Positions 9,261 through 37,635 of a stretch of DNA of 41,137 nucleotides are shown piece by piece. Each line of letters begins with the position of its first letter. Position 1 is the first letter of the stretch. Location of the stretch: positions 1 through 41,137 of the IMG/VR virus record IMGVR_UViG_3300023179_007167; one strand, 5' to 3'. A program made the translations under genes and the position numbers. This stretch comes from a virus. The notes under the pieces were generated by a model, which saw nothing but the letters and a program-made list of their open reading frames with translations, was not told the origin of the DNA and made no database searches.

Positions 9261-10169
9261 TTAACGGGTGATGTCAGATTGCCGACGTCGCGGCGTATTT
9301 GTTGTCTCTTCTTCGTCCTCCGTGCTGTCGTCCTGCGAAAGCTGATCAATAACTTCTTCCTGAACTTTAGCGCATCTGGAAACGTGTTCCGCTACGATAT
9401 CGGACATGCGCGTGAAGTTATCGCGCATTTCGGCGAAGTACGCCAAAATTGTTGTGTCTAACTTCTCGGGCGGAGCGTTGGCGATATCGTCATAAATATC
9501 TGTATCGTCCTCGACCAGCCACAGTTTCTCAGACCGGGCAATAAACCGCCGCTGATGCTGAAGCAAATCAAGAACTTGCTGCTTTAAACCCTTGGGCGCC
9601 CGATGCGTCCGGCCACCGTTTTTCTGTTTGCCGCGCAACTCCTGAAGCTCTAGCGCAAGATTACGTGCGGTGTAGCCGTCTTCGGCGCATTTGTCCTCAA
9701 GAACCGTGCGCTGGTCGTCGTCCGGAACCTGAGCCAATAATTGAACGTGCGAAACGGTCATACGCCACCGCGGTCGTTCTGGGCACCGCAGATTTAACAA
9801 CCGTGTCACTTCACCTTCACTAGGATATTTCTCAAAAAATGACACAGCGCTACGCAACTGATCTGCCGTATAAACTGGCGCAAAAATACTAATCAACAAA
9901 GAAGCGCCGTCAATATTGTTATTAATCTGCTCTTGCGTCAAATAAATTTCGGGGTTGTTTCTCACGTCGGTAATGATACGCCCGACGCGCCAAAACGCAG
10001 TTAAACTGGCTACCTGAACGTCGCCGAAAATTTGATCGATTTCAGATATGACGCCCTGCAGGTCTTCCGTCAGCGTCTCTGTAATCTCGTAACGTTGGTT
10101 TGCGGCGGCCGGGTGGTCGCCGACAAAATCCGCCTGAATAACAGACATTGCTTTGGATTTCCGTCCCAT
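9261..10169 (-). CDS. Possible DUF1016-N (YhcG-like) domain protein
   Basis: 302-aa protein whose middle resembles the N-terminal DUF1016/YhcG domain: a helix LTAFWRVGRII at 56-66, then TVSHVQLLAQV at 138-148 and a following DGYTARNLALELQEL at 164-178. In YhcG-type proteins, corresponding helices precede a PD-(D/E)XK nuclease domain. No such nuclease motif is visible here. The C-terminus is a long charged helical region ending in an acidic run (DDSTEDEEE) and a basic tip. A good ribosome binding site (AGGAGA) precedes the ATG at 10169. A winged-helix or ParB-like DNA-binding role is an alternative. The family call is tentative. Confidence 0.4.
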   Translation of the reverse strand: MGRKSKAMSVIQADFVGDHPAAANQRYEITETLTEDLQGVISEIDQIFGDVQVASLTAFWRVGRIITDVRNNPEIYLTQEQINNNIDGASLLISIFAPVYTADQLRSAVSFFEKYPSEGEVTRLLNLRCPERPRWRMTVSHVQLLAQVPDDDQRTVLEDKCAEDGYTARNLALELQELRGKQKNGGRTHRAPKGLKQQVLDLLQHQRRFIARSEKLWLVEDDTDIYDDIANAPPEKLDTTILAYFAEMRDNFTRMSDIVAEHVSRCAKVQEEVIDQLSQDDSTEDEEETTNTPRRRQSDITR

Positions 10170-13922: not shown

Positions 13923-15251
13923 TTATGCACTCTTTTCTTCGTTAAAAGGAAACTCTGTTTGTGTTGGCGCAACCTGCGCAGTCGCACCAAAAAGAGCAAC
14001 TACTTCGGCTTCGGTCATGGCATTTGCGCCGCGAGACAAATTGGTCAACGCGTCTTCAATTACAGTTTTTGTCCCGCCCTCTACGGCCGGCGTAGTGTGA
14101 CTCATGTGGCAACCTTTTTTTCCCCGCGCACCCTCAACTTTTGGTTTCTTCTTGCGGCGAGGAATATGCACGCCAAACGGCGCAATGGGTTCGCGTATCC
14201 AGTACAAATTATGCTGCGACATGCGGCATTCTTCTTTGTCGTTGGAGCCGACTGCGGCTGGAATATCAAACCGCGAATCCCACTTAGAGTAACCGTCAGC
14301 GTGATCTAGATACCACGTTACGCACGCCTCCAACGCCGAAGCGGGCACGTCGTCGCGCAAATGAATAAAAACAGCAGCATTAAATATTGCGCGAACAGAT
14401 TGAATTTCCCATATTTTATGCGTGTTATTGAACGAGGCGTTGCGCGCAATTACCAACCGCTCAACCAATGCCGCCGCATTTTCTAAATAGGTATAAAACC
14501 TATGAACTTCTCGTTCTACATCTGCGTTTGTCCAATTGTTTGCTTTTATTAGCTGCGCAACTAAAACTTCTGGTTGTTTCTTTTTCGTAATTGTGTCGTG
14601 TGTGAGAATTTCTGTAACGGTTGGTTTTTTTGCAGCCCACATATAAAACAACGCAAGTGCGCCGCGATTTAACTGCCCATTGCGTTTTCGACCGTCTGTC
14701 CCAAGTTCGGTCGACATGTCTGCTGTTTTCAGTACGTCGACGCCGGCTAACCGGGCGGTCACGTGCACAACAGCAGTGCAAACACGATCATATAACCGTT
14801 TGCCAACGTCTGTCGCCGTAAGTTCCCCGCGCCACAAATCGTACGGAAGAAGTCCAGTACCTTTGTTTAAATTCTGAAAAGACAACATAGCCTCGTCATG
14901 CGTGGCGTGCTGTCGGTGCATGATATGCACGTTGATTTGCTTTAAAATTTCTACTTCACGCTGTGTTAAACCAAAAGTTTTTGGGTTTTCTATCGCGCGC
15001 TTTAACGTAGTGAGCCGCTGCCGGCCGTCTTTCAAAAACAAAGTCATGCTGCCAGCAACGCAATACGTGTGAATCGGCGCTTCAAGCTGCAATATAGACA
15101 ACGTATATTGAATGAATTCGCGTTGCTTTTTTTCTGACCACACGAATTCTCGTTGAAAAAACGGATGTATTAGCTGATGTTCTTCTATTTCGCGCAAAAG
15201 GTTCCTAACGTAAAGATCGCGCGCTGCGGAATGCGGTAATGAAACGTCCAT
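13923..15251 (-). CDS. DUF262 (GmrSD N-terminal-like, ParB-fold) protein
   Basis: 442-aa protein with the DUF262 signature: IHPFFQREFVW at 28-38 (consensus fQR.yvW) followed by helices and LFLKDGRQRLTTL at 71-83 (consensus DGqQRl.tl). In GmrSD-type modification-dependent restriction enzymes this ParB-like domain binds and hydrolyses NTP and couples to an HNH nuclease. No HNH motif is visible here, so it may be a regulator, an NTPase or a nickase on its own. The middle is helical and the C-terminus has a basic PRRKKKPKVEG segment. ATG 15251 is chosen because AAAGGAGA precedes it. It follows a terminator and precedes the RecA-like gene by four bases. Confidence 0.75.
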   Translation of the reverse strand: MDVSLPHSAARDLYVRNLLREIEEHQLIHPFFQREFVWSEKKQREFIQYTLSILQLEAPIHTYCVAGSMTLFLKDGRQRLTTLKRAIENPKTFGLTQREVEILKQINVHIMHRQHATHDEAMLSFQNLNKGTGLLPYDLWRGELTATDVGKRLYDRVCTAVVHVTARLAGVDVLKTADMSTELGTDGRKRNGQLNRGALALFYMWAAKKPTVTEILTHDTITKKKQPEVLVAQLIKANNWTNADVEREVHRFYTYLENAAALVERLVIARNASFNNTHKIWEIQSVRAIFNAAVFIHLRDDVPASALEACVTWYLDHADGYSKWDSRFDIPAAVGSNDKEECRMSQHNLYWIREPIAPFGVHIPRRKKKPKVEGARGKKGCHMSHTTPAVEGGTKTVIEDALTNLSRGANAMTEAEVVALFGATAQVAPTQTEFPFNEEKSA

Positions 15252-15270
15252 GCCGTCTCCTTTCAGGTAT

Positions 15271-15326
15271 AAAAATGTCAACCCCGGCACGCACGCGGCG
15301 AACGAACAACGCGGTGCCGGGGTTGA
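15271..15326 (-). terminator. Probable intrinsic terminator between the 452-aa gene and the DUF262 gene
   Basis: A perfect 13-bp inverted repeat (TCAACCCCGGCAC at 15278-15290 and its complement at 15314-15326) with a 23-base loop, followed on the minus strand by CATTTTTAT. It lies just past the stop at 15335. The long loop makes it weaker than the terminator at 2108. It could instead be an operator or an mRNA-stabilising hairpin controlling the DUF262 and RecA-like genes. Confidence 0.6.
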
Positions 15327-30935: not shown

Positions 30936-32354
30936 TTAGTTATCAGAGAAACAAAATACGCCGCCAAAATTTTCAATAATGTTTTTTGCCTCTTCACGCG
31001 AAATCGCAAAAAATTCATTATCGCGACGAGCGGCCGCGTATTCTCGATGGAGACGCGTTTCAAGCGCAACGCAATCGCCAGTCGGGATATACCCGATTAA
31101 CGCTAAACCGCCCGGAACAAAAGTAGCGCTTTCTCGTTGTCGCGCCGCAACGCTGCGGCGTGTTCTACCAATTTTAATCAAACCTTGCGACGCGTCCTGC
31201 AAAAAATAAACGTTCTCTATTGTTTCGTCGCCGATTTCGTCGTGCACCGGACAGTTGTAGCCGGTCGGCACAGAAGATAAATGCTTTGGGATTACAACAC
31301 TGCCGGCGCGTAGCTTCAACACAGGTTTTGTCCGACCCTCGCCGGTCCAATACAAAGCCATGTGCGGGTTGCGCCAGTGCGGCGACAATTCGCTTTGCCG
31401 TTGCAAATCTTTGCCAAAATTAAAACCACGCCCTTGAATTTTTGCGGCGCGCTCTTCCATCCATCGTTTTGCTGCCTCGTCTGTTTCAAGATCGTATTTT
31501 TCTTGTTCCGACGCTAATACCGCCGGCGTAATTAAATCGTTCCCAGACGCAAGCATTGATATCAACACAGTCAACTTAAAAAGAAAATACAACCGCCGCG
31601 AATACAGCGGCAAGTCAGCAACAATTTGATCCGCGGTCTCGTTGCATAATATTTGCCCAACTTTTGTTCCAGATTCAAACGCCCACAGCGACGCGCGCAA
31701 CATGTCTTCTACTGTTGCTTTGCTTTGTTCCGTCAAAACAGATTTTGGCAGTTGAATCAAAAAACGATCGTCGTCGTCGACTACTTCAAAACTACCTGCG
31801 ACAAGCAAACCAATTTCGCCGCGCGGGTTTTTTGACGTCACAAACATAGAGCAAAATTTTTGCGCCACATGTGTGTCAAAATTATCTATTTTGAGTAAAG
31901 CCGTTTTAATTCCAAGCGGTTCTTGCCCTTTTGGAAAACGAAAACACAACGTACCGGGCGCAAATTTCAACTGTGACAAAGGTAAATCAAGTTTTGTGTT
32001 TTGAACTAATTTTTCAACGATTGGATACACATTGTAAAACGGGCGATTGGCTTCAAACCAATCTAGTTCGCAAATAGTCATAATCGTATGCCGAATACCA
32101 GCCGACGCGTGAAAATAAACTTCTGCCTCCATACCGCGAATTTTTGTTGTGTCACGCGCTGGATCAAACAAGTCACTAAAAATTTCCTGTACGCTACTGC
32201 TGTATTCGTCAATTATTTTTTGAGTTTTTACGCGAAGAAACTCGATTGGCGACAAACGTTTGACGTTGCCAATCCCTTTATGGTTTCCCCGACCAGTGTT
32301 TTCTAATTGTCGTATTGTGTGCAGTTTAGACGTTATGAATTCGTGAAATTTCAT
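30936..32354 (-). CDS. Large protein with C-terminal GIY-YIG-type (T5orf172/MUG113-like) nuclease domain
   Basis: 472-aa fusion. Residues 380-460 match the GIY-YIG/T5orf172 group: NVYFLQDASQGLIKIGRT at 381-398, Arg405 and Arg407, a second strand LALIGYIPTGD, Glu432 in ETRLHREYA and the closing NEFFAISREEA. The N-terminal 330 residues are unfamiliar and rich in aromatics. They are followed by SPHWRNPHMALYWTGEG (324-340), an H-W-rich segment of a type I recall in plasmid and phage proteins of unknown function. The preceding spacer has AAGGA before ATG 32354. It may act as a homing-type or host-DNA-degrading nuclease, or as a defence or counter-defence protein. The lower GC and A/T-rich codons compared with its neighbours suggest separate origin. 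Confidence 0.7.
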   Translation of the reverse strand: MKFHEFITSKLHTIRQLENTGRGNHKGIGNVKRLSPIEFLRVKTQKIIDEYSSSVQEIFSDLFDPARDTTKIRGMEAEVYFHASAGIRHTIMTICELDWFEANRPFYNVYPIVEKLVQNTKLDLPLSQLKFAPGTLCFRFPKGQEPLGIKTALLKIDNFDTHVAQKFCSMFVTSKNPRGEIGLLVAGSFEVVDDDDRFLIQLPKSVLTEQSKATVEDMLRASLWAFESGTKVGQILCNETADQIVADLPLYSRRLYFLFKLTVLISMLASGNDLITPAVLASEQEKYDLETDEAAKRWMEERAAKIQGRGFNFGKDLQRQSELSPHWRNPHMALYWTGEGRTKPVLKLRAGSVVIPKHLSSVPTGYNCPVHDEIGDETIENVYFLQDASQGLIKIGRTRRSVAARQRESATFVPGGLALIGYIPTGDCVALETRLHREYAAARRDNEFFAISREEAKNIIENFGGVFCFSDN

Positions 32355-32383
32355 TTGTATCCTTACATCGTAAACGTAAACCA

Positions 32384-32454
32384 ATGCCCGACTAGGATTC
32401 GAACCTAGACAAAGGGAACCAAAATCCCTTGTGCTACCGTTACACCATCGGGCA
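32384..32454 (-). tRNA. tRNA-Gln (anticodon UUG)
   Basis: A full cloverleaf can be drawn on the minus strand: 7-bp acceptor stem TGCCCGA/TCGGGCA, D-arm GTGT/GCAC, anticodon stem AGGGA/TCCCT with loop TTTTGGT (anticodon TTG, reading CAA and CAG), a four-base variable loop and T-arm CTAGG/CCTAG with loop TTCGAAT. CCA is not encoded and the discriminator position is T, which is unusual for Gln. It lies 29 bases upstream of the GIY-YIG gene. Confidence 0.9.
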
Positions 32455-32622: not shown

Positions 32623-33210
32623 TTAAAAACGAATTTGACTCGGCCACATGTCGACAAACTTTTTTGCCAACTCTATCGCCACAAGATTATCTACTTCTGC
32701 GTTGTGCATGTCTCCGGCACTTGCGTGCGGCACAAAACGATCGCGCAGCTTAGTCAGCGAGTATCCGGTATCGTGCTGCCCCACCGCGTTTAAAAACCGC
32801 GCAATCACCGCGGTGTCAAAAAACGGATACGTAAAATACTGATCCCACTCGCGGTCGTCAAGAAGGTGCGCGCGTAAAAATTGAGTGTCAAATGCGACGT
32901 TGTGACCAGCCGGCACGAAACGCTTTTTGCCGGTGATTACGCACGCACGTTGCAGATATTTTGTCAGCATGTACTTGGCGTCTGCTAGCGTGACGCCGCT
33001 AGCGTTGTGTGCAACCAAGTCAATTTTGTTCACGGAGAGCGCGCCTGCTGTAAGCGCATACTCTTCGTGCTTGATTTGCAAATACAGTCCGGGGTTGTAC
33101 GTATCGACGGGGATAATATGAAAATCCTTGTCCACCACGATGCACGACACCGTGAGCAAACTATGCTTCGGCATCAAGCCGCCGGTTTCTGTATCTACAA
33201 ACAGGTACAT
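32623..33210 (-). CDS. DnaQ-like 3'-5' exonuclease (DEDDh)
   Basis: Predicted exonuclease of the proofreading or RNase T type. ExoI FVDTETGG with Asp6 and Glu8, ExoII GHNVAFDTQFL with Asp108, and ExoIII HNAEVDNLVAIEL with His169 and Asp174, which identify the DEDDh class. It is a single 195-aa domain. The polymerase at 16813 already has its own DEDDy proofreading domain, so this protein more likely trims ends, degrades RNA or ssDNA, or helps recombination. It is last in the unit that starts at the 37.4 kb promoter, before the tRNA. Confidence 0.88.
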   Translation of the reverse strand: MYLFVDTETGGLMPKHSLLTVSCIVVDKDFHIIPVDTYNPGLYLQIKHEEYALTAGALSVNKIDLVAHNASGVTLADAKYMLTKYLQRACVITGKKRFVPAGHNVAFDTQFLRAHLLDDREWDQYFTYPFFDTAVIARFLNAVGQHDTGYSLTKLRDRFVPHASAGDMHNAEVDNLVAIELAKKFVDMWPSQIRF

Positions 33211-33220
33211 GTGAATCCTT

Positions 33221-33508
33221 TCAGGAAACTAGATCATCGTCATCGCCGCTAAACGCGCCAAACGTCTCGGTGTCCGGGTCGTTGCGAAAACTCACGAACT
33301 CGCCGCCGTCGTCGTTAAAAATGATTCCCGGCAAGCCGCCAACGTCTTCAGAAGACTTGCGCGCCATCCGCCACAGTTGTTTGTAAACCTCTCCGCCAGT
33401 GTTTTTGCCAAAATGCGTTTCTAGAAACGCGCGCACTGTCAGATAGTCGTCAAACGGGAGTTCGTCTTCCGATTCCGAATTGTAGTCCGAGAAAGAAAAG
33501 ATAGTCAT
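33221..33508 (-). CDS. Small very acidic protein (95 aa)
   Basis: Over a quarter of the residues are Asp or Glu, concentrated at both ends (DYNSESEDELPFDDYL; DDDDL at the end), with a small helical centre. Such acidic phage proteins can mimic DNA or bind basic partners, but no specific family is recognised. Its stop lies 10 bases before the exonuclease start. Confidence 0.55.
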   Translation of the reverse strand: MTIFSFSDYNSESEDELPFDDYLTVRAFLETHFGKNTGGEVYKQLWRMARKSSEDVGGLPGIIFNDDGGEFVSFRNDPDTETFGAFSGDDDDLVS

Positions 33509-33515
33509 AAATACC

Positions 33516-34661
33516 TCAGAAAATAGCCGACACAGAAACGAGTCCGTCGCTCTCTGTCGGAAAAATGTAAATGCCCTTTGTTGTAAACAACCGCGGCTTT
33601 TCGTGCCGCATGATTACCGTCTCGGTGCCGTTTTCGTTTTCGCGCACCAGTCGTGAAACACTGTATGGGCCAGACGAATCTGTGCGCGCGTCGATCACTA
33701 CTGCCATGTCGGTGTCCGGTACGGGAAACCGCACAGACGCACCAATAGGCCCAGTGGCCCCCACAACCCCTGTCAGCGCGCAGTCACGGGCAGCGCTGAA
33801 CACGTGTTCAAGCGGCTGCAAGTCTGCTGTAGACACAGTTATCTTGTGGTACGGCCCTATCAGCTTGCCTGCCAATCCGCTGTTCAGCGCCGACTCTTGT
33901 TCCTTGTTGATAGCAGAAACCATGAACAAGTTTACGCTTGCCACGGTTAGCTGCAGCAGTAAGCCGGGAGGAAACAATTTAAGATCATCCGGGTCGCGCG
34001 ATGCGGCTACAGATATCATGCCGGGCTTTATCCGCACGTACTCCCCAGTTTCGAGAAGTACGTGCGCGTCGCCAATCTTGGTGTCAAACATAATGCCGCG
34101 AGTGTCGGGTCCGAGCTTGGCGCCGGGCAACTCGCCTCTGAAATACACCATGTCGGCGTCCAGTTGCTCAAGCAACGCGGGCGTAACTTTAACCGGCGCA
34201 AACGCGCGCGCGACTAACGCGTCGGTAAAGATATCTGGCGCCTTTTTGGCTGCTGGCTTCTTGCCGCTTGTAACGTGCTCAGCAGCAACCGCGCTGACAA
34301 GGTCGAGCAGCACATCGGCGGAGATGTCTTCGTCTGGCTGTAACGCCGCCAGCAAATACATAAACGCCTTCTGCAGCACAGGAATCAAATCAGTTTTAGC
34401 GACTCCCGCGGCAAAAACGCGCTTCTCGGCTTCGGCGCCGAGCAACGTGTGAGTGACCGGAAACTGAAGACGGCCCCACGGCTCGTCGGCCAAGCTGACA
34501 AGCAAATGCCCCATCGAAAGCGCAGCAGACGGCATCGCCTGGGCAGAACGGCGCATAAGCTCGACAAGGCCCGTAGCAACCAACAGCCGATCTTTAGGCG
34601 GTAGTTCTACCGTATTAGCAAAAAACTCTGAAAAACAATCTGTGATGTTTGATTCTGGCAT
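33516..34661 (-). CDS. Hypothetical protein (381 aa)
   Basis: Unrecognised. ATG 34661 (MPESNITDCF) is chosen because the longer frame reads back into the upstream gene with an Arg-rich, unlike composition. The first 130 residues are helical, a Lys/Ala linker (GKKPAAKKAP) follows, and the C-terminal 220 residues look beta-rich with regularly spaced Gly. It lies 8 bases downstream of the HTH/DHS-like gene, so it may serve the same pathway. Function unknown. Confidence 0.6.
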   Translation of the reverse strand: MPESNITDCFSEFFANTVELPPKDRLLVATGLVELMRRSAQAMPSAALSMGHLLVSLADEPWGRLQFPVTHTLLGAEAEKRVFAAGVAKTDLIPVLQKAFMYLLAALQPDEDISADVLLDLVSAVAAEHVTSGKKPAAKKAPDIFTDALVARAFAPVKVTPALLEQLDADMVYFRGELPGAKLGPDTRGIMFDTKIGDAHVLLETGEYVRIKPGMISVAASRDPDDLKLFPPGLLLQLTVASVNLFMVSAINKEQESALNSGLAGKLIGPYHKITVSTADLQPLEHVFSAARDCALTGVVGATGPIGASVRFPVPDTDMAVVIDARTDSSGPYSVSRLVRENENGTETVIMRHEKPRLFTTKGIYIFPTESDGLVSVSAIF

Positions 34662-34669
34662 GTGTGTGT

Positions 34670-35857
34670 TTATTTTCCGGCATACGCGTCTGCGCAAGAT
34701 TGAAGCAACTGAGAAAACCCAGCCACTGTTGGTTGAGAAAGGTAGATGACGCGTCCGCCATAAGTGTGAATATCGAAGTCTAAACTTTTGTCTTGGTCTT
34801 GAAACAGAACAAACACAAAATCTCTTTGAACGTCGGTCGGGTATTTGCGCGCACGAAGTCGCGACAAAAACAACTCTACTGCGCGGCGGCAATTGCCGAC
34901 CGCAACGATAACGCCGCCGTCAAAATAATTTTGTACTTGCTCTGTAAACGCTAATAAATCTACGTATGCCGCGGCGCCGATAGCCGCGCCAAGTGTTGGC
35001 GGGCTAACAGACGGGTTTGTGTGGTTTGGAATCTCGCCAATCTCCGCTGACACATACACAGGAACGCCGGCGGCAAAAACAGACGCCATCAAACTACGAT
35101 CTCGACCAGCCTGCGACCGAAAACCAGACGCACAAATAGTCTCGCCATAGCCGGCTTGGTTCACAGCCGCCGTCATCGCCAGCGTATTGATATCTGGCCG
35201 CGGCATTTCGTCGGCATACGCAAGGTCAGCGCAGGCGCCGGCAAGAGTAACCATCAAAACACTGGCATAACGCTCTGCGAAAAACTTACGCCAGATAGCG
35301 TTGGTCGTTTCGCTAAACGCTGCAGAATCTAAAAAAAACAACACTGGTTTTGAGTTTTGCCGCGCCTGAAAAATGCTTCGGGCGGCGGCCCCGAAGCTCA
35401 TCAAATAGTTTTCATCGAGCGGCGTGACAGTGTCTGGCTGTACCGGCGGCAAAAAATACGTGCCGGGCACATCCGCAGACAAATCAGCCACGCGGTAGCA
35501 ACTTGTTATCTTTGGCAAATACTGGAAATGCTCTGTCTGACTCGAACTTGTCGTCATCGGCCCGGAACCGAACAGCAACCAGTCGGCGCTCACACCCAGC
35601 CGCTCAACAATTTGCCCGGCCATGCGAATAGTTAATTGCGAGTGGCCGATCAATACGCGGTGTAAATACCGGTAGCACACGCCTAGCGCCAGCGCCATCT
35701 CGTGGTCGTTGCCGCCAAACTGTACGTCGAGTAAGTACTGCACGCGCTCGCGCACGGGGGCGTACGCGTGCCACAACAGCCGGCGGTTCTTGCCGTACTT
35801 TTGCAACTGCTCTCTAGTTGCGCGATACTTCTTCCGCTCTTTTTGCGGCTTTGTCAT
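34670..35857 (-). CDS. XRE-type helix-turn-helix protein fused to a deoxyhypusine-synthase/Sir2-like domain
   Basis: 395 aa. Residues 35-100 read as a Cro/CI-type helix-turn-helix ending in GVSADWLLFGSGP, a hallmark of XRE regulators. Residues 150-390 follow the order of the deoxyhypusine-synthase-like (DHS-like NAD/FAD-binding) fold: PVLFFLDSAAFSETT at 171-185, a helix and LMVTLAGACADLAYA at 201-215, GVPVYVSAEIG at 264-274, NHTNPSVSPPTLGAAIG at 278-294, and GGVIVAVGNCRRAVELFL at 314-331 (compare GGV.LNVGSAV..PEVFL in bacterial DHS-like proteins, from memory). Phages have no eIF5A, so true hypusine synthesis is unlikely; NAD or polyamine sensing by a repressor is one reading. The lysine used by DHS is not evident. 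It overlaps the upstream gene by 44 bases. Confidence 0.6.
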   Translation of the reverse strand: MTKPQKERKKYRATREQLQKYGKNRRLLWHAYAPVRERVQYLLDVQFGGNDHEMALALGVCYRYLHRVLIGHSQLTIRMAGQIVERLGVSADWLLFGSGPMTTSSSQTEHFQYLPKITSCYRVADLSADVPGTYFLPPVQPDTVTPLDENYLMSFGAAARSIFQARQNSKPVLFFLDSAAFSETTNAIWRKFFAERYASVLMVTLAGACADLAYADEMPRPDINTLAMTAAVNQAGYGETICASGFRSQAGRDRSLMASVFAAGVPVYVSAEIGEIPNHTNPSVSPPTLGAAIGAAAYVDLLAFTEQVQNYFDGGVIVAVGNCRRAVELFLSRLRARKYPTDVQRDFVFVLFQDQDKSLDFDIHTYGGRVIYLSQPTVAGFSQLLQSCADAYAGK

Positions 35858-36893
35858 CTCGTGCTACTTTCTCCTGCTGCACATACTCCCGAACCAACGC
35901 AGAACCAGCCCGACGCATTTTGCCTGTGCCGCCAATCAACCGCATCCGGGCTGTAGCGTTTAAATAAACCGCTACAAGCTCGATGTCGTTGTTTAAAAGC
36001 TCGCGGGGGTATGCGTGGAACGCGATCAGCGCGCGGTAGATATCTTCGTCCTGCGTGCTGACTGTTTTGCGTTGCATCCATGTCTCGCCGCCGCGGGCGA
36101 CCGCTGTCGTATGCAGTATGCGGCGGTCGCCACGCATCGTTGGTATTGATAACTTTGTAGCGCTGGACGCAAGCAGCAGGCGCCGCGTCTGCACGCGCCA
36201 GCCGTCTTGCATGGGCACCGCGCACACGCGGTAAAGCGACGCCAGCGTATTGCGACGTGTGCTTGTGTAGTTCTGGTGTATATGGTTCTTGCACTTCTGG
36301 AGTTCGTCGCGCAACCGGATAATCGCCGCGTATCGTTCTTCTGGCTGCGCAAAACCCAAGCCGCCAATCCCGGCGCTTGTTAAAAAATGCTCGTCTGTGA
36401 CGACATGCAACGACAGCCGGGATTTTGGATCGTTTGCAATGTAGGCGTTGATCAGATATTTAAGTCGTTGCGTTTGCCGCGCAACAAGCGACGCCCAGCA
36501 GTGCGGGCAGAAGTTTGCGCGGTTGCACGGTTTGTACTCGACTGGCTTCCACTCCGCGGGCCGCGGCATGTACGCCACGCACCGCGGCCGGCAGTCAGCA
36601 TAAAGCTCAAACGCGCGCACAAGTTTGTACGGGTCTAGCTCGCTGTCAGGCACAAGCCCCCGCTGGTACAGCCATAACTCGTGCCGGCCAAGGTCCCAAA
36701 GTCTGTGAACCCATTGCCGACACATGCTGTTCACGCTCGACCGGACGTTGTACACAGAACAATCTCTGTTGATACCGTACACAGCGGCCAAAGCCACGCC
36801 GTAACTTGCCCGTTTACGCGGGGCAACAATAGCGTAGCTCCGCGTAGACCGCTTCCGGTACGCGGGCTCCAACACGTCTTGTAAAACCAGCAT
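35814..36893 (-). CDS. Cys-rich basic hypothetical protein (359 aa)
   Basis: Unrecognised. Cys101, 105, 123, 129 and 132 (CRPRC, then FCPHCW) make a probable zinc site near the middle, followed by LVARQTQRLKYLINAY. This Cys-Pro-x-Cys plus basic helix followed by a beta strand (RLSLHVVT) faintly resembles the zinc region of rolling-circle Rep proteins, but no HUH motif or catalytic Tyr is clear. The protein is very rich in Arg and ends in a charged helix, so nucleic-acid binding is likely. ATG 36893 overlaps the stop of the SEC-C gene and its own stop lies inside the HTH gene. Confidence 0.6.
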   Translation of the reverse strand: MLVLQDVLEPAYRKRSTRSYAIVAPRKRASYGVALAAVYGINRDCSVYNVRSSVNSMCRQWVHRLWDLGRHELWLYQRGLVPDSELDPYKLVRAFELYADCRPRCVAYMPRPAEWKPVEYKPCNRANFCPHCWASLVARQTQRLKYLINAYIANDPKSRLSLHVVTDEHFLTSAGIGGLGFAQPEERYAAIIRLRDELQKCKNHIHQNYTSTRRNTLASLYRVCAVPMQDGWRVQTRRLLLASSATKLSIPTMRGDRRILHTTAVARGGETWMQRKTVSTQDEDIYRALIAFHAYPRELLNNDIELVAVYLNATARMRLIGGTGKMRRAGSALVREYVQQEKVARDDKAAKRAEEVSRN

Positions 36894-37354
36894 TACGCCT
36901 GCTCCGGCTCTTCCGGTATAGGCGGCGCAGCTTCTTGCTCTTGCAACTGCTGCTGCATGTATTCGATGCGCTCTTTTACAAACGCCATGGCGTCTTCCAC
37001 GCCGTCAACTTCGATAAACGGTAGTTTTTCTTGTAGATGCTGCCACTTGGTCGCGCCTACGCCGGCAACGTTAATTTCACCGGGTTCCTGATTTTCAAAT
37101 TCGGGGAGCGTGGCAATAGCAAACGCTTCCGCGCGGTTTTTAAACACTATGATCTTTCCTTCTTTTGTCGAAAAGAATCCGGTACCGCGGGAGTTGCTGA
37201 TAACATAACGCACGGCCTCTTCGCCGCTGTCGATGTATTGCATGACGCGTTGCGGTTGCGTCATTGGAGGAATCAGGCAACAATACTTGAACTTCTTACC
37301 GCTTCCGCACCAACAACGCTCGTTGCGCTTTGGAGTTGCCTGCTTTCGCAGCAT
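36893..37354 (-). CDS. SEC-C zinc-motif protein (153 aa)
   Basis: Residues 11-26 are a textbook SEC-C motif, NERCWCGSGKKFKYCC (Cys14, Cys16, Cys25, Cys26), as found at the SecA C-terminus and in many small proteins where it binds zinc and partner proteins. The middle is a mixed alpha/beta domain and the end is a Gln/Glu/Pro-rich helix and tail. A near-perfect AAGGAGG ribosome binding site lies a few bases upstream of ATG 37354. It is the first gene after the sigma70-type promoter at 37406-37433, so it should be well expressed early. The exact role is unknown; motif certain, function not. Confidence 0.8.
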   Translation of the reverse strand: MLRKQATPKRNERCWCGSGKKFKYCCLIPPMTQPQRVMQYIDSGEEAVRYVISNSRGTGFFSTKEGKIIVFKNRAEAFAIATLPEFENQEPGEINVAGVGATKWQHLQEKLPFIEVDGVEDAMAFVKERIEYMQQQLQEQEAAPPIPEEPEQA

Positions 37355-37405: not shown

Positions 37406-37433
37406 AGCATACCAGACCTAAAAACGAAGTCAA
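37406..37433 (-). promoter_or_regulatory. Sigma70-type promoter for the SEC-C / Cys-rich / HTH operon
   Basis: On the minus strand TTGACT (-35) at 37428-37433, a 16-base spacer and TATGCT (-10) at 37406-37411 with an extended -10 TG (CTGGTATGCT). A transcript would start near 37399, about 45 bases before the SEC-C ATG. This is the best host-type promoter I can see in the window and suits immediate-early expression. Confidence 0.7.
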
Positions 37434-37498
37434 CCAGCGTATTTCCCGAGAAAAACCGCTTACCTATTTTTTTACCCATTTTACCACGCGCTGTAACT

Positions 37499-37602: not shown

Positions 37603-37635
37603 GAGAAAATCGCAGGTCTGTAGAGGAACCTGCGA
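37603..37635 (-). terminator. Intrinsic terminator after the 113-aa gene
   Basis: Perfect 8-bp stem TCGCAGGT/ACCTGCGA (arms 37610-37617 and 37628-37635) with a 10-base loop, followed on the minus strand by TTTTCTC. It lies just past the stop at 37640 and isolates the next promoter from upstream transcription. Confidence 0.75.

Follow-up and report, generated by a model that had tools for sequence, protein, structure and literature searches.

It is a known principle that a helix-turn-helix (HTH) domain can be joined with a former enzyme domain to make a one-component regulator, and many Cro/C1 repressors have a C-terminal oligomerisation domain. To our knowledge, no HTH fusion with a domain of the deoxyhypusine synthase (DHS) superfamily is known, and a literature search found no report of HTH-DHS fusions. 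K329 is the catalytic residue of human DHS, in which spermidine is held by D243, D316, N292 and W327 (PMC7226451); when polyamine enzymes were surveyed with BLASTP, neither DHS nor SpeY homologues turned up in viruses or phages (PMC9992855). The protein GSU2086 was listed merely as a hypothetical protein in the study that placed its gene between hldE and gmhA and found its mutant impaired in electrode growth (PMC5585712).

The window analysed here, the whole 41,137-bp stretch of an IMG/VR virus record, carries replication genes for DNA polymerase A, a primase, a DnaB-like helicase, a UvsX-like recombinase and SbcCD-like proteins. Relatives, reached via the DNA polymerase and then by family alignment, lie on contigs of up to 198 kb (found via the polymerase) and up to 203 kb (via the fusion family described below), and in one of them the large terminase shares 29% identity with its counterpart in Salmonella phage Arash (180 kb). 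The window DNA polymerase is about 25% identical or less to those of named phages among the best-ranked matches. The window is thus part of the genome of a large tailed phage that has no close relatives in culture.

Within this window, a minus-strand open reading frame starts with ATG at 35857 and stops at 34670, and its product joins two folds:

34670–35857, minus strand: HTH-DHS-like fusion gene (open reading frame, 395 aa; AlphaFold2 model).
35558–35761, minus strand: Cro/C1-type helix-turn-helix domain, residues 33–100 (AlphaFold2 helices; PHROG repressor families; HTH structural matches).
34673–35413, minus strand: DHS-superfamily domain of the GSU2086 clade, residues 149–395 (VIA-align; hhalign to GSU2086; tree).

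The fusion was found in 13 further distinct phage proteins that are 27–43% identical to the window protein. A single-protein search of viral contigs for close relatives gave no match, nor did 50,697 INPHARED phage records when searched with the window protein, two relatives or a GSU2086 protein; a first genome scan with the phage motif returned no relatives. Plasmids yielded one weak match only (residues 54–143, mostly HTH), and the fused domain was not found among BFVD viral structure models at E below 0.001. The combination of an HTH with a DHS-superfamily domain appears to be new.

At the N-terminal end, the AlphaFold2 (AF2) model, built on an input alignment of the 14 family members (mean pLDDT 74), places five helices at residues 33–47, 51–58, 62–69, 77–87 and 91–96 with pLDDT of about 75–90, followed by a disordered linker (residues ~106–148) and a Rossmann-like domain (residues 149–392). 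The PHROG family phrog_2328, a transcriptional repressor, matches residues 35–102 (E 4.4e-5), and the nearest viral structure models to this part are HTH repressors (rmsd about 1.6–2.4 Å). Pfam HTH_3 scores 15.5 bits (E 0.019; below the gathering cut-off of 23) and weakly matches 4 of the 14 family members. From the repressor matches, the five modelled helices and the nearest viral models, residues 35–100 are predicted to form a Cro/C1-type HTH. The protein shares with Cro/C1-type phage repressors an HTH domain and a likely operator beside the operon promoter (see below), but its C-terminus, in place of a LexA-like peptidase or a short dimerisation tail, is an enzyme-derived Rossmann-like domain.

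Foldseek against the PDB with the fusion model returned P. horikoshii DHS first (7cmc, E 7.5e-5), then LOR/SDH (3c2q) and ArgZ (6juy). With VIA-align, the C-terminal domain matched the C-terminal domain of AgrE/ArgZ at Z 16.8, P. horikoshii DHS at Z 16.6 (229 residues, 3.6 Å), human DHS at Z 16.4 and archaeal LOR/SDH 3c2q at Z 16.1, with the DHS alignments spanning 229–239 residues; these DHS-type matches at 16–17 are far above the Z of 7–8 that models without relatives reach. The AgrE/ArgZ ornithine-handling domain and LOR/SDH, both among the best structural matches, are amine or amino-acid enzyme domains (AgrE was solved with NAD+ and ornithine), but they share 11–13% identity with the phage domain and have no HTH.

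The structural likeness is joined by sequence homology. The NCBIfam model GSU2086_dom (NF052581) matches the window protein with E 8.5e-12, at 45.2 bits against a curated cut-off of 250 bits, and the other phage fusion members at 25–51 bits, all under that cut-off. Profile-profile alignment (hhalign) of the 14 phage proteins with 19 GSU2086 proteins gave E 1.3e-25 (probability 99.7%) over 234 columns, which is the whole C-terminal domain; with these NCBIfam and profile-profile E-values, the similarity lies far beyond chance. The bait for the GSU2086 family was a GSU2086-like fragment (214.7 bits against NF052581) and was used only to fetch real genome members. All 14 GSU2086 proteins tested weakly match the Pfam deoxyhypusine synthase family (best 2.8e-6), and a merged phage and GSU2086 profile matches bacterial DHS at E 8e-9, whereas the window protein itself does not match PF01916 in Pfam and has no significant match to PF21570. 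The immediate family of the phage domain is GSU2086 and not DHS proper, nor probably Sir2, and GSU2086 is in turn a distant DHS relative. GSU2086 proteins stand alone (310–330 aa, without HTH), while the phage domain is fused behind one; DHS and the SpeY homospermidine synthase (PF01916) have the same fold with remote sequence similarity, and the phage protein differs from them in the HTH in front, the absence of the SWGK lysine and the lack of a PF01916 match of its own. The earlier note on this DNA, made from the letters alone, had read the gene as a Cro/CI-like domain at residues 35–100 before a DHS/Sir2-like fold. The five-helix model and the PHROG match agree with its first part, with Pfam below its gathering score, and the DHS-like fold is borne out by the structural matches and by homology via GSU2086, but no Sir2 structure is among the 50 structural matches listed.

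In a maximum-likelihood tree with DHS as outgroup, a single clade (100/100) on a long branch (2.1) holds all 14 phage domains, and within GSU2086 its neighbours are the cellular proteins of loci L157, L159, L161 and L165 (nested at 98/99); the phage domains have a single origin. The genes of these four neighbours adjoin a PfkB-type sugar kinase (Pfam-confirmed for L157, L161 and L165), and their products form a GSU2086 subfamily with an IGYDI.HE.PNCDGAA-type motif. In the L157 operon the PfkB-type kinase protein also has a cytidylyltransferase-like domain, and the surroundings of the four genes, which code for an uncharacterised DHS-like protein, resemble a nucleotide-sugar operon. The nearest cellular relatives, the GSU2086 clade, lie in sugar-kinase/heptose operons and not in polyamine operons. 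GSU2086-type domains were found in 193 of 297 genomes from the phylum holding Desulfonema and in 148 of 198 from a second phylum (centred on a Nitrospirae genome), and the family is widespread in Desulfobacterota and Nitrospirota; no HTH-fused GSU2086-type protein was among the matches listed from these 297 and 198 cellular genomes of two phyla. In the Desulfonema phylum we also noted bacterial DHS homologues (L134–L144), three of which (L137, L140, L143) have an agmatinase-like open reading frame as the next gene, a neighbourhood that suggests polyamine (homospermidine-type) synthesis.

The fusion gene stands in a row of genes with a fixed order in the relatives (SEC-C protein, zinc protein, HTH-DHS, ~380-aa protein, exonuclease):

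36893–37354, minus strand: SEC-C motif protein, 153 aa, first gene of the operon (Pfam SEC-C 1.1e-8; homologue in 15 of 16 loci).
35814–36893, minus strand: 359-aa Cys-motif protein, upstream gene (invariant C-x-P and C-x5-C-P-x-C motifs; AF2 pLDDT 86).
33516–34661, minus strand: downstream gene, 381 aa, no assigned family (directly downstream of HTH-DHS in relatives).
33221–33508, minus strand: small conserved open reading frame, 95 aa (same gene row in 14 of 16 loci).
32623–33210, minus strand: DNA polymerase exonuclease-like protein, end of the row (phrog_192, 1.9e-18; 11 of 16 loci).

The Cys-motif gene lies directly upstream of HTH-DHS in 16 of 16 relative loci and overlaps its start in nearly all of them (by 44 nt in the window); its two motifs form a probable zinc site. 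The best structural neighbours of its AF2 model included SIRV1 ORF119 (Z 7.7), Helitron (5.8) and the geminivirus and Vientovirus Rep proteins (4.3–4.6), a resemblance too weak (Z under 8; Foldseek E above 0.1) for us to name it a known Rep. On the other side, the ~380-aa family follows HTH-DHS directly in all 15 loci that extend that far; the window member has no Pfam or PDB match, and the family shows invariant E204/G206/E207 and R352/P356/R357 and a GxYxFP C-terminal motif.

Upstream of the first gene, we recorded the following elements:

37406–37433, minus strand: sigma70-like promoter TTGACT-N16-TATGCT with TG before the -10, upstream of the SEC-C gene.
37439–37456, minus strand: candidate operator GTTTTTCTCGGGAAATAC, an imperfect 18-bp palindrome (7 of 9 pairs), just upstream of the -35.
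37610–37635, minus strand: terminator-like stem between the preceding open reading frame and the operon (consensus match only).

Sigma70-like matches numbered 7 against 5.7 expected, so that a single site is not significant alone. In eight aligned loci, TTGAC and TAnnCT are invariant before the SEC-C gene, together with a conserved GGAGG. The conserved position of this promoter in relatives upholds the claim of the earlier note that the operon has its own sigma70 promoter, and the two zinc proteins that it named there, the SEC-C and Cys-motif proteins, are real and kept in relatives. Its suggestion of a defence-related pathway fared worse, as neither the fusion protein nor its two direct neighbours gave a PADLOC match; the SEC-C protein matches PADLOC E2 models via the short SEC-C motif only.

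The site GTTTTTCTCGGGAAATAC is present as a single copy in the window and is not iterated. It occurs at the same place in L026, L028, L030 and L040 and is diverged in L029; the palindrome is conserved in only 5–6 of the closer relatives and is not found in the most divergent loci, L031 and L033. It is also the best shared 18-mer of the upstream regions, with 15–18 of 18 positions against at most 13–14 in shuffles. A scan of all viral contigs with the palindrome pattern found three copies in this operon and nine others without these genes, the latter about the number expected by chance. On this sequence conservation, GTTTTTCTCGGGAAATAC is our best candidate operator, while the palindrome beside the promoter could instead be another promoter element.

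We somewhat favour the view that the fusion is a one-component autoregulator of the phage, in which the HTH acts on the palindrome of its own operon and an enzyme-derived dimerisation and ligand-sensing domain shifts DNA affinity. The Cro/C1-type HTH would bind the palindrome at 37439–37456, beside the promoter that serves its own operon. The C-terminal domain would have been acquired once from a cellular GSU2086-type (DHS-superfamily) enzyme, would have lost catalysis, and would now serve as a dimerisation and ligand-sensing module; it may bind a small molecule, with NAD(H) or the nucleotide-sugar or amine ligand of the ancestral enzyme as the likeliest candidates, and such binding would change the DNA affinity of the fusion protein. 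The replication-type genes could also be regulated by other phage proteins.

The conserved residues bear on what the C-terminal domain does. GSU2086 has 57 conserved columns; the phage family keeps 20 of these conserved, 18 of them with the same residue (hypergeometric P 4e-4), and about two thirds are lost. Apart from S255, H279 and D300, the columns conserved in both hold mainly glycines and prolines (the shared positions include G236, G238, S255, P266, G274, H279, P282, G294, D300, GGV and G321), and the glycine-rich loops GGV and G321 are kept, with the alignment to DHS being remote. The polar set of GSU2086 (GAH..K, NGA..HD.E, GTD..H.H, LPE.FLKA..RN and an R/H-rich C-terminus) is not kept: H78, H109, D110, E112, H190, D196, H201, E243, K247, R253, N254, D268, R282 and H297 are missing, and only the equivalents of H199, D216 and S175 (H279, D300 and S255) remain. 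No column of the 14 phage proteins holds a conserved lysine, and the DHS SWGK segment with the lysine of human K329 is absent in the alignment with bacterial DHS; a DHS-type enzyme, as the first reading of the sequence had entertained, thus finds no support. In its place, the phage family has invariants or near-invariants of its own (D222, Y237, E239, E275, Y298, E306 and R325), and this new set argues for a maintained function. With the fold core kept, catalysis apparently lost and new constraints gained, we infer from the sequences that the phage domain is an enzyme turned sensor. As a tentative extension, which takes in the NAD or polyamine sensing raised by the earlier note, the proteins may form a new class of transcription regulator with which a large phage tunes a replication-linked operon to the metabolic or redox state of the host, its DHS-fold domain detecting NAD(H), a polyamine or amino acid, or a sugar nucleotide.

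The same residues weigh on two further readings. It is rather doubtful that the DHS-like domain is a degenerate, ligand-free oligomerisation scaffold whose only task is to make dimers or tetramers of a plain autorepressor: the loss of most GSU2086 polar invariants and of the DHS catalytic lysine, the long branch and the frequency of C-terminal oligomerisation domains in Cro/C1 repressors all fit it, but over 14 proteins E239, E275, H279, D300 and Y298 do not vary and D222, E306 and R325 hardly do, which is more than a scaffold needs, and the fold retains its glycine loops. It is unlikely that the protein is an active enzyme that uses NAD while tethered to DNA or the transcription machinery and whose active site has new residues such as E239, E275, H279 and D300. 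All the nearest solved structures belong to enzymes or putative enzymes, of which most depend on NAD, and both the phage and the GSU2086 family conserve H279 and D300; against this, the DHS lysine is absent, the candidate catalytic residues of GSU2086 are lost, no polyamine or NAD gene was seen adjoining, and none of seven related phage records has an NAD-salvage gene of the NAPRTase/NAMPT family. About as unlikely is a replication-control or nucleoid-type DNA-binding protein working with the overlapping, maybe Rep/HUH-like, zinc protein on a replication origin, for although the gene overlap, the strict neighbourhood, the nearby exonuclease and replication genes and the weak likeness that the zinc protein bears to the Rep proteins SIRV1 ORF119, Helitron and geminivirus Rep (Z 4.3–7.7) speak for it, the Rep resemblance lies below trust level (Z under 8, Foldseek E above 0.1) and the candidate site is a single, non-iterated copy beside a promoter.

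Under the autoregulator reading, large uncultured phages would have a gene switch protein with a domain descended from bacterial DHS-type metabolic enzymes and apparently re-used as a sensor. Should its ligand be NAD(H), a polyamine or a sugar nucleotide, these phages would read a host metabolite directly at a promoter, an idea that the candidate operator makes testable, and that ligand would also hint at what GSU2086, an uncharacterised but very common bacterial protein, does.

Three other minus-strand genes of the window were noted in passing. The MUG113/T5orf172 protein at 30936–32384, present in one of 16 relative loci (L032), adjoins a tRNA-Gln gene (32384–32454), and its gene looks like a mobile insertion. 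The product of 13923–15290, a protein unusual for the replication region of a phage, contains a GmrSD N-terminal (DUF262-like) domain and gives weak PADLOC matches to NsnA and PD-T4-2_A, and that of 9261–10169 has a DUF1016 N-terminal-like domain (E 2.3e-5).
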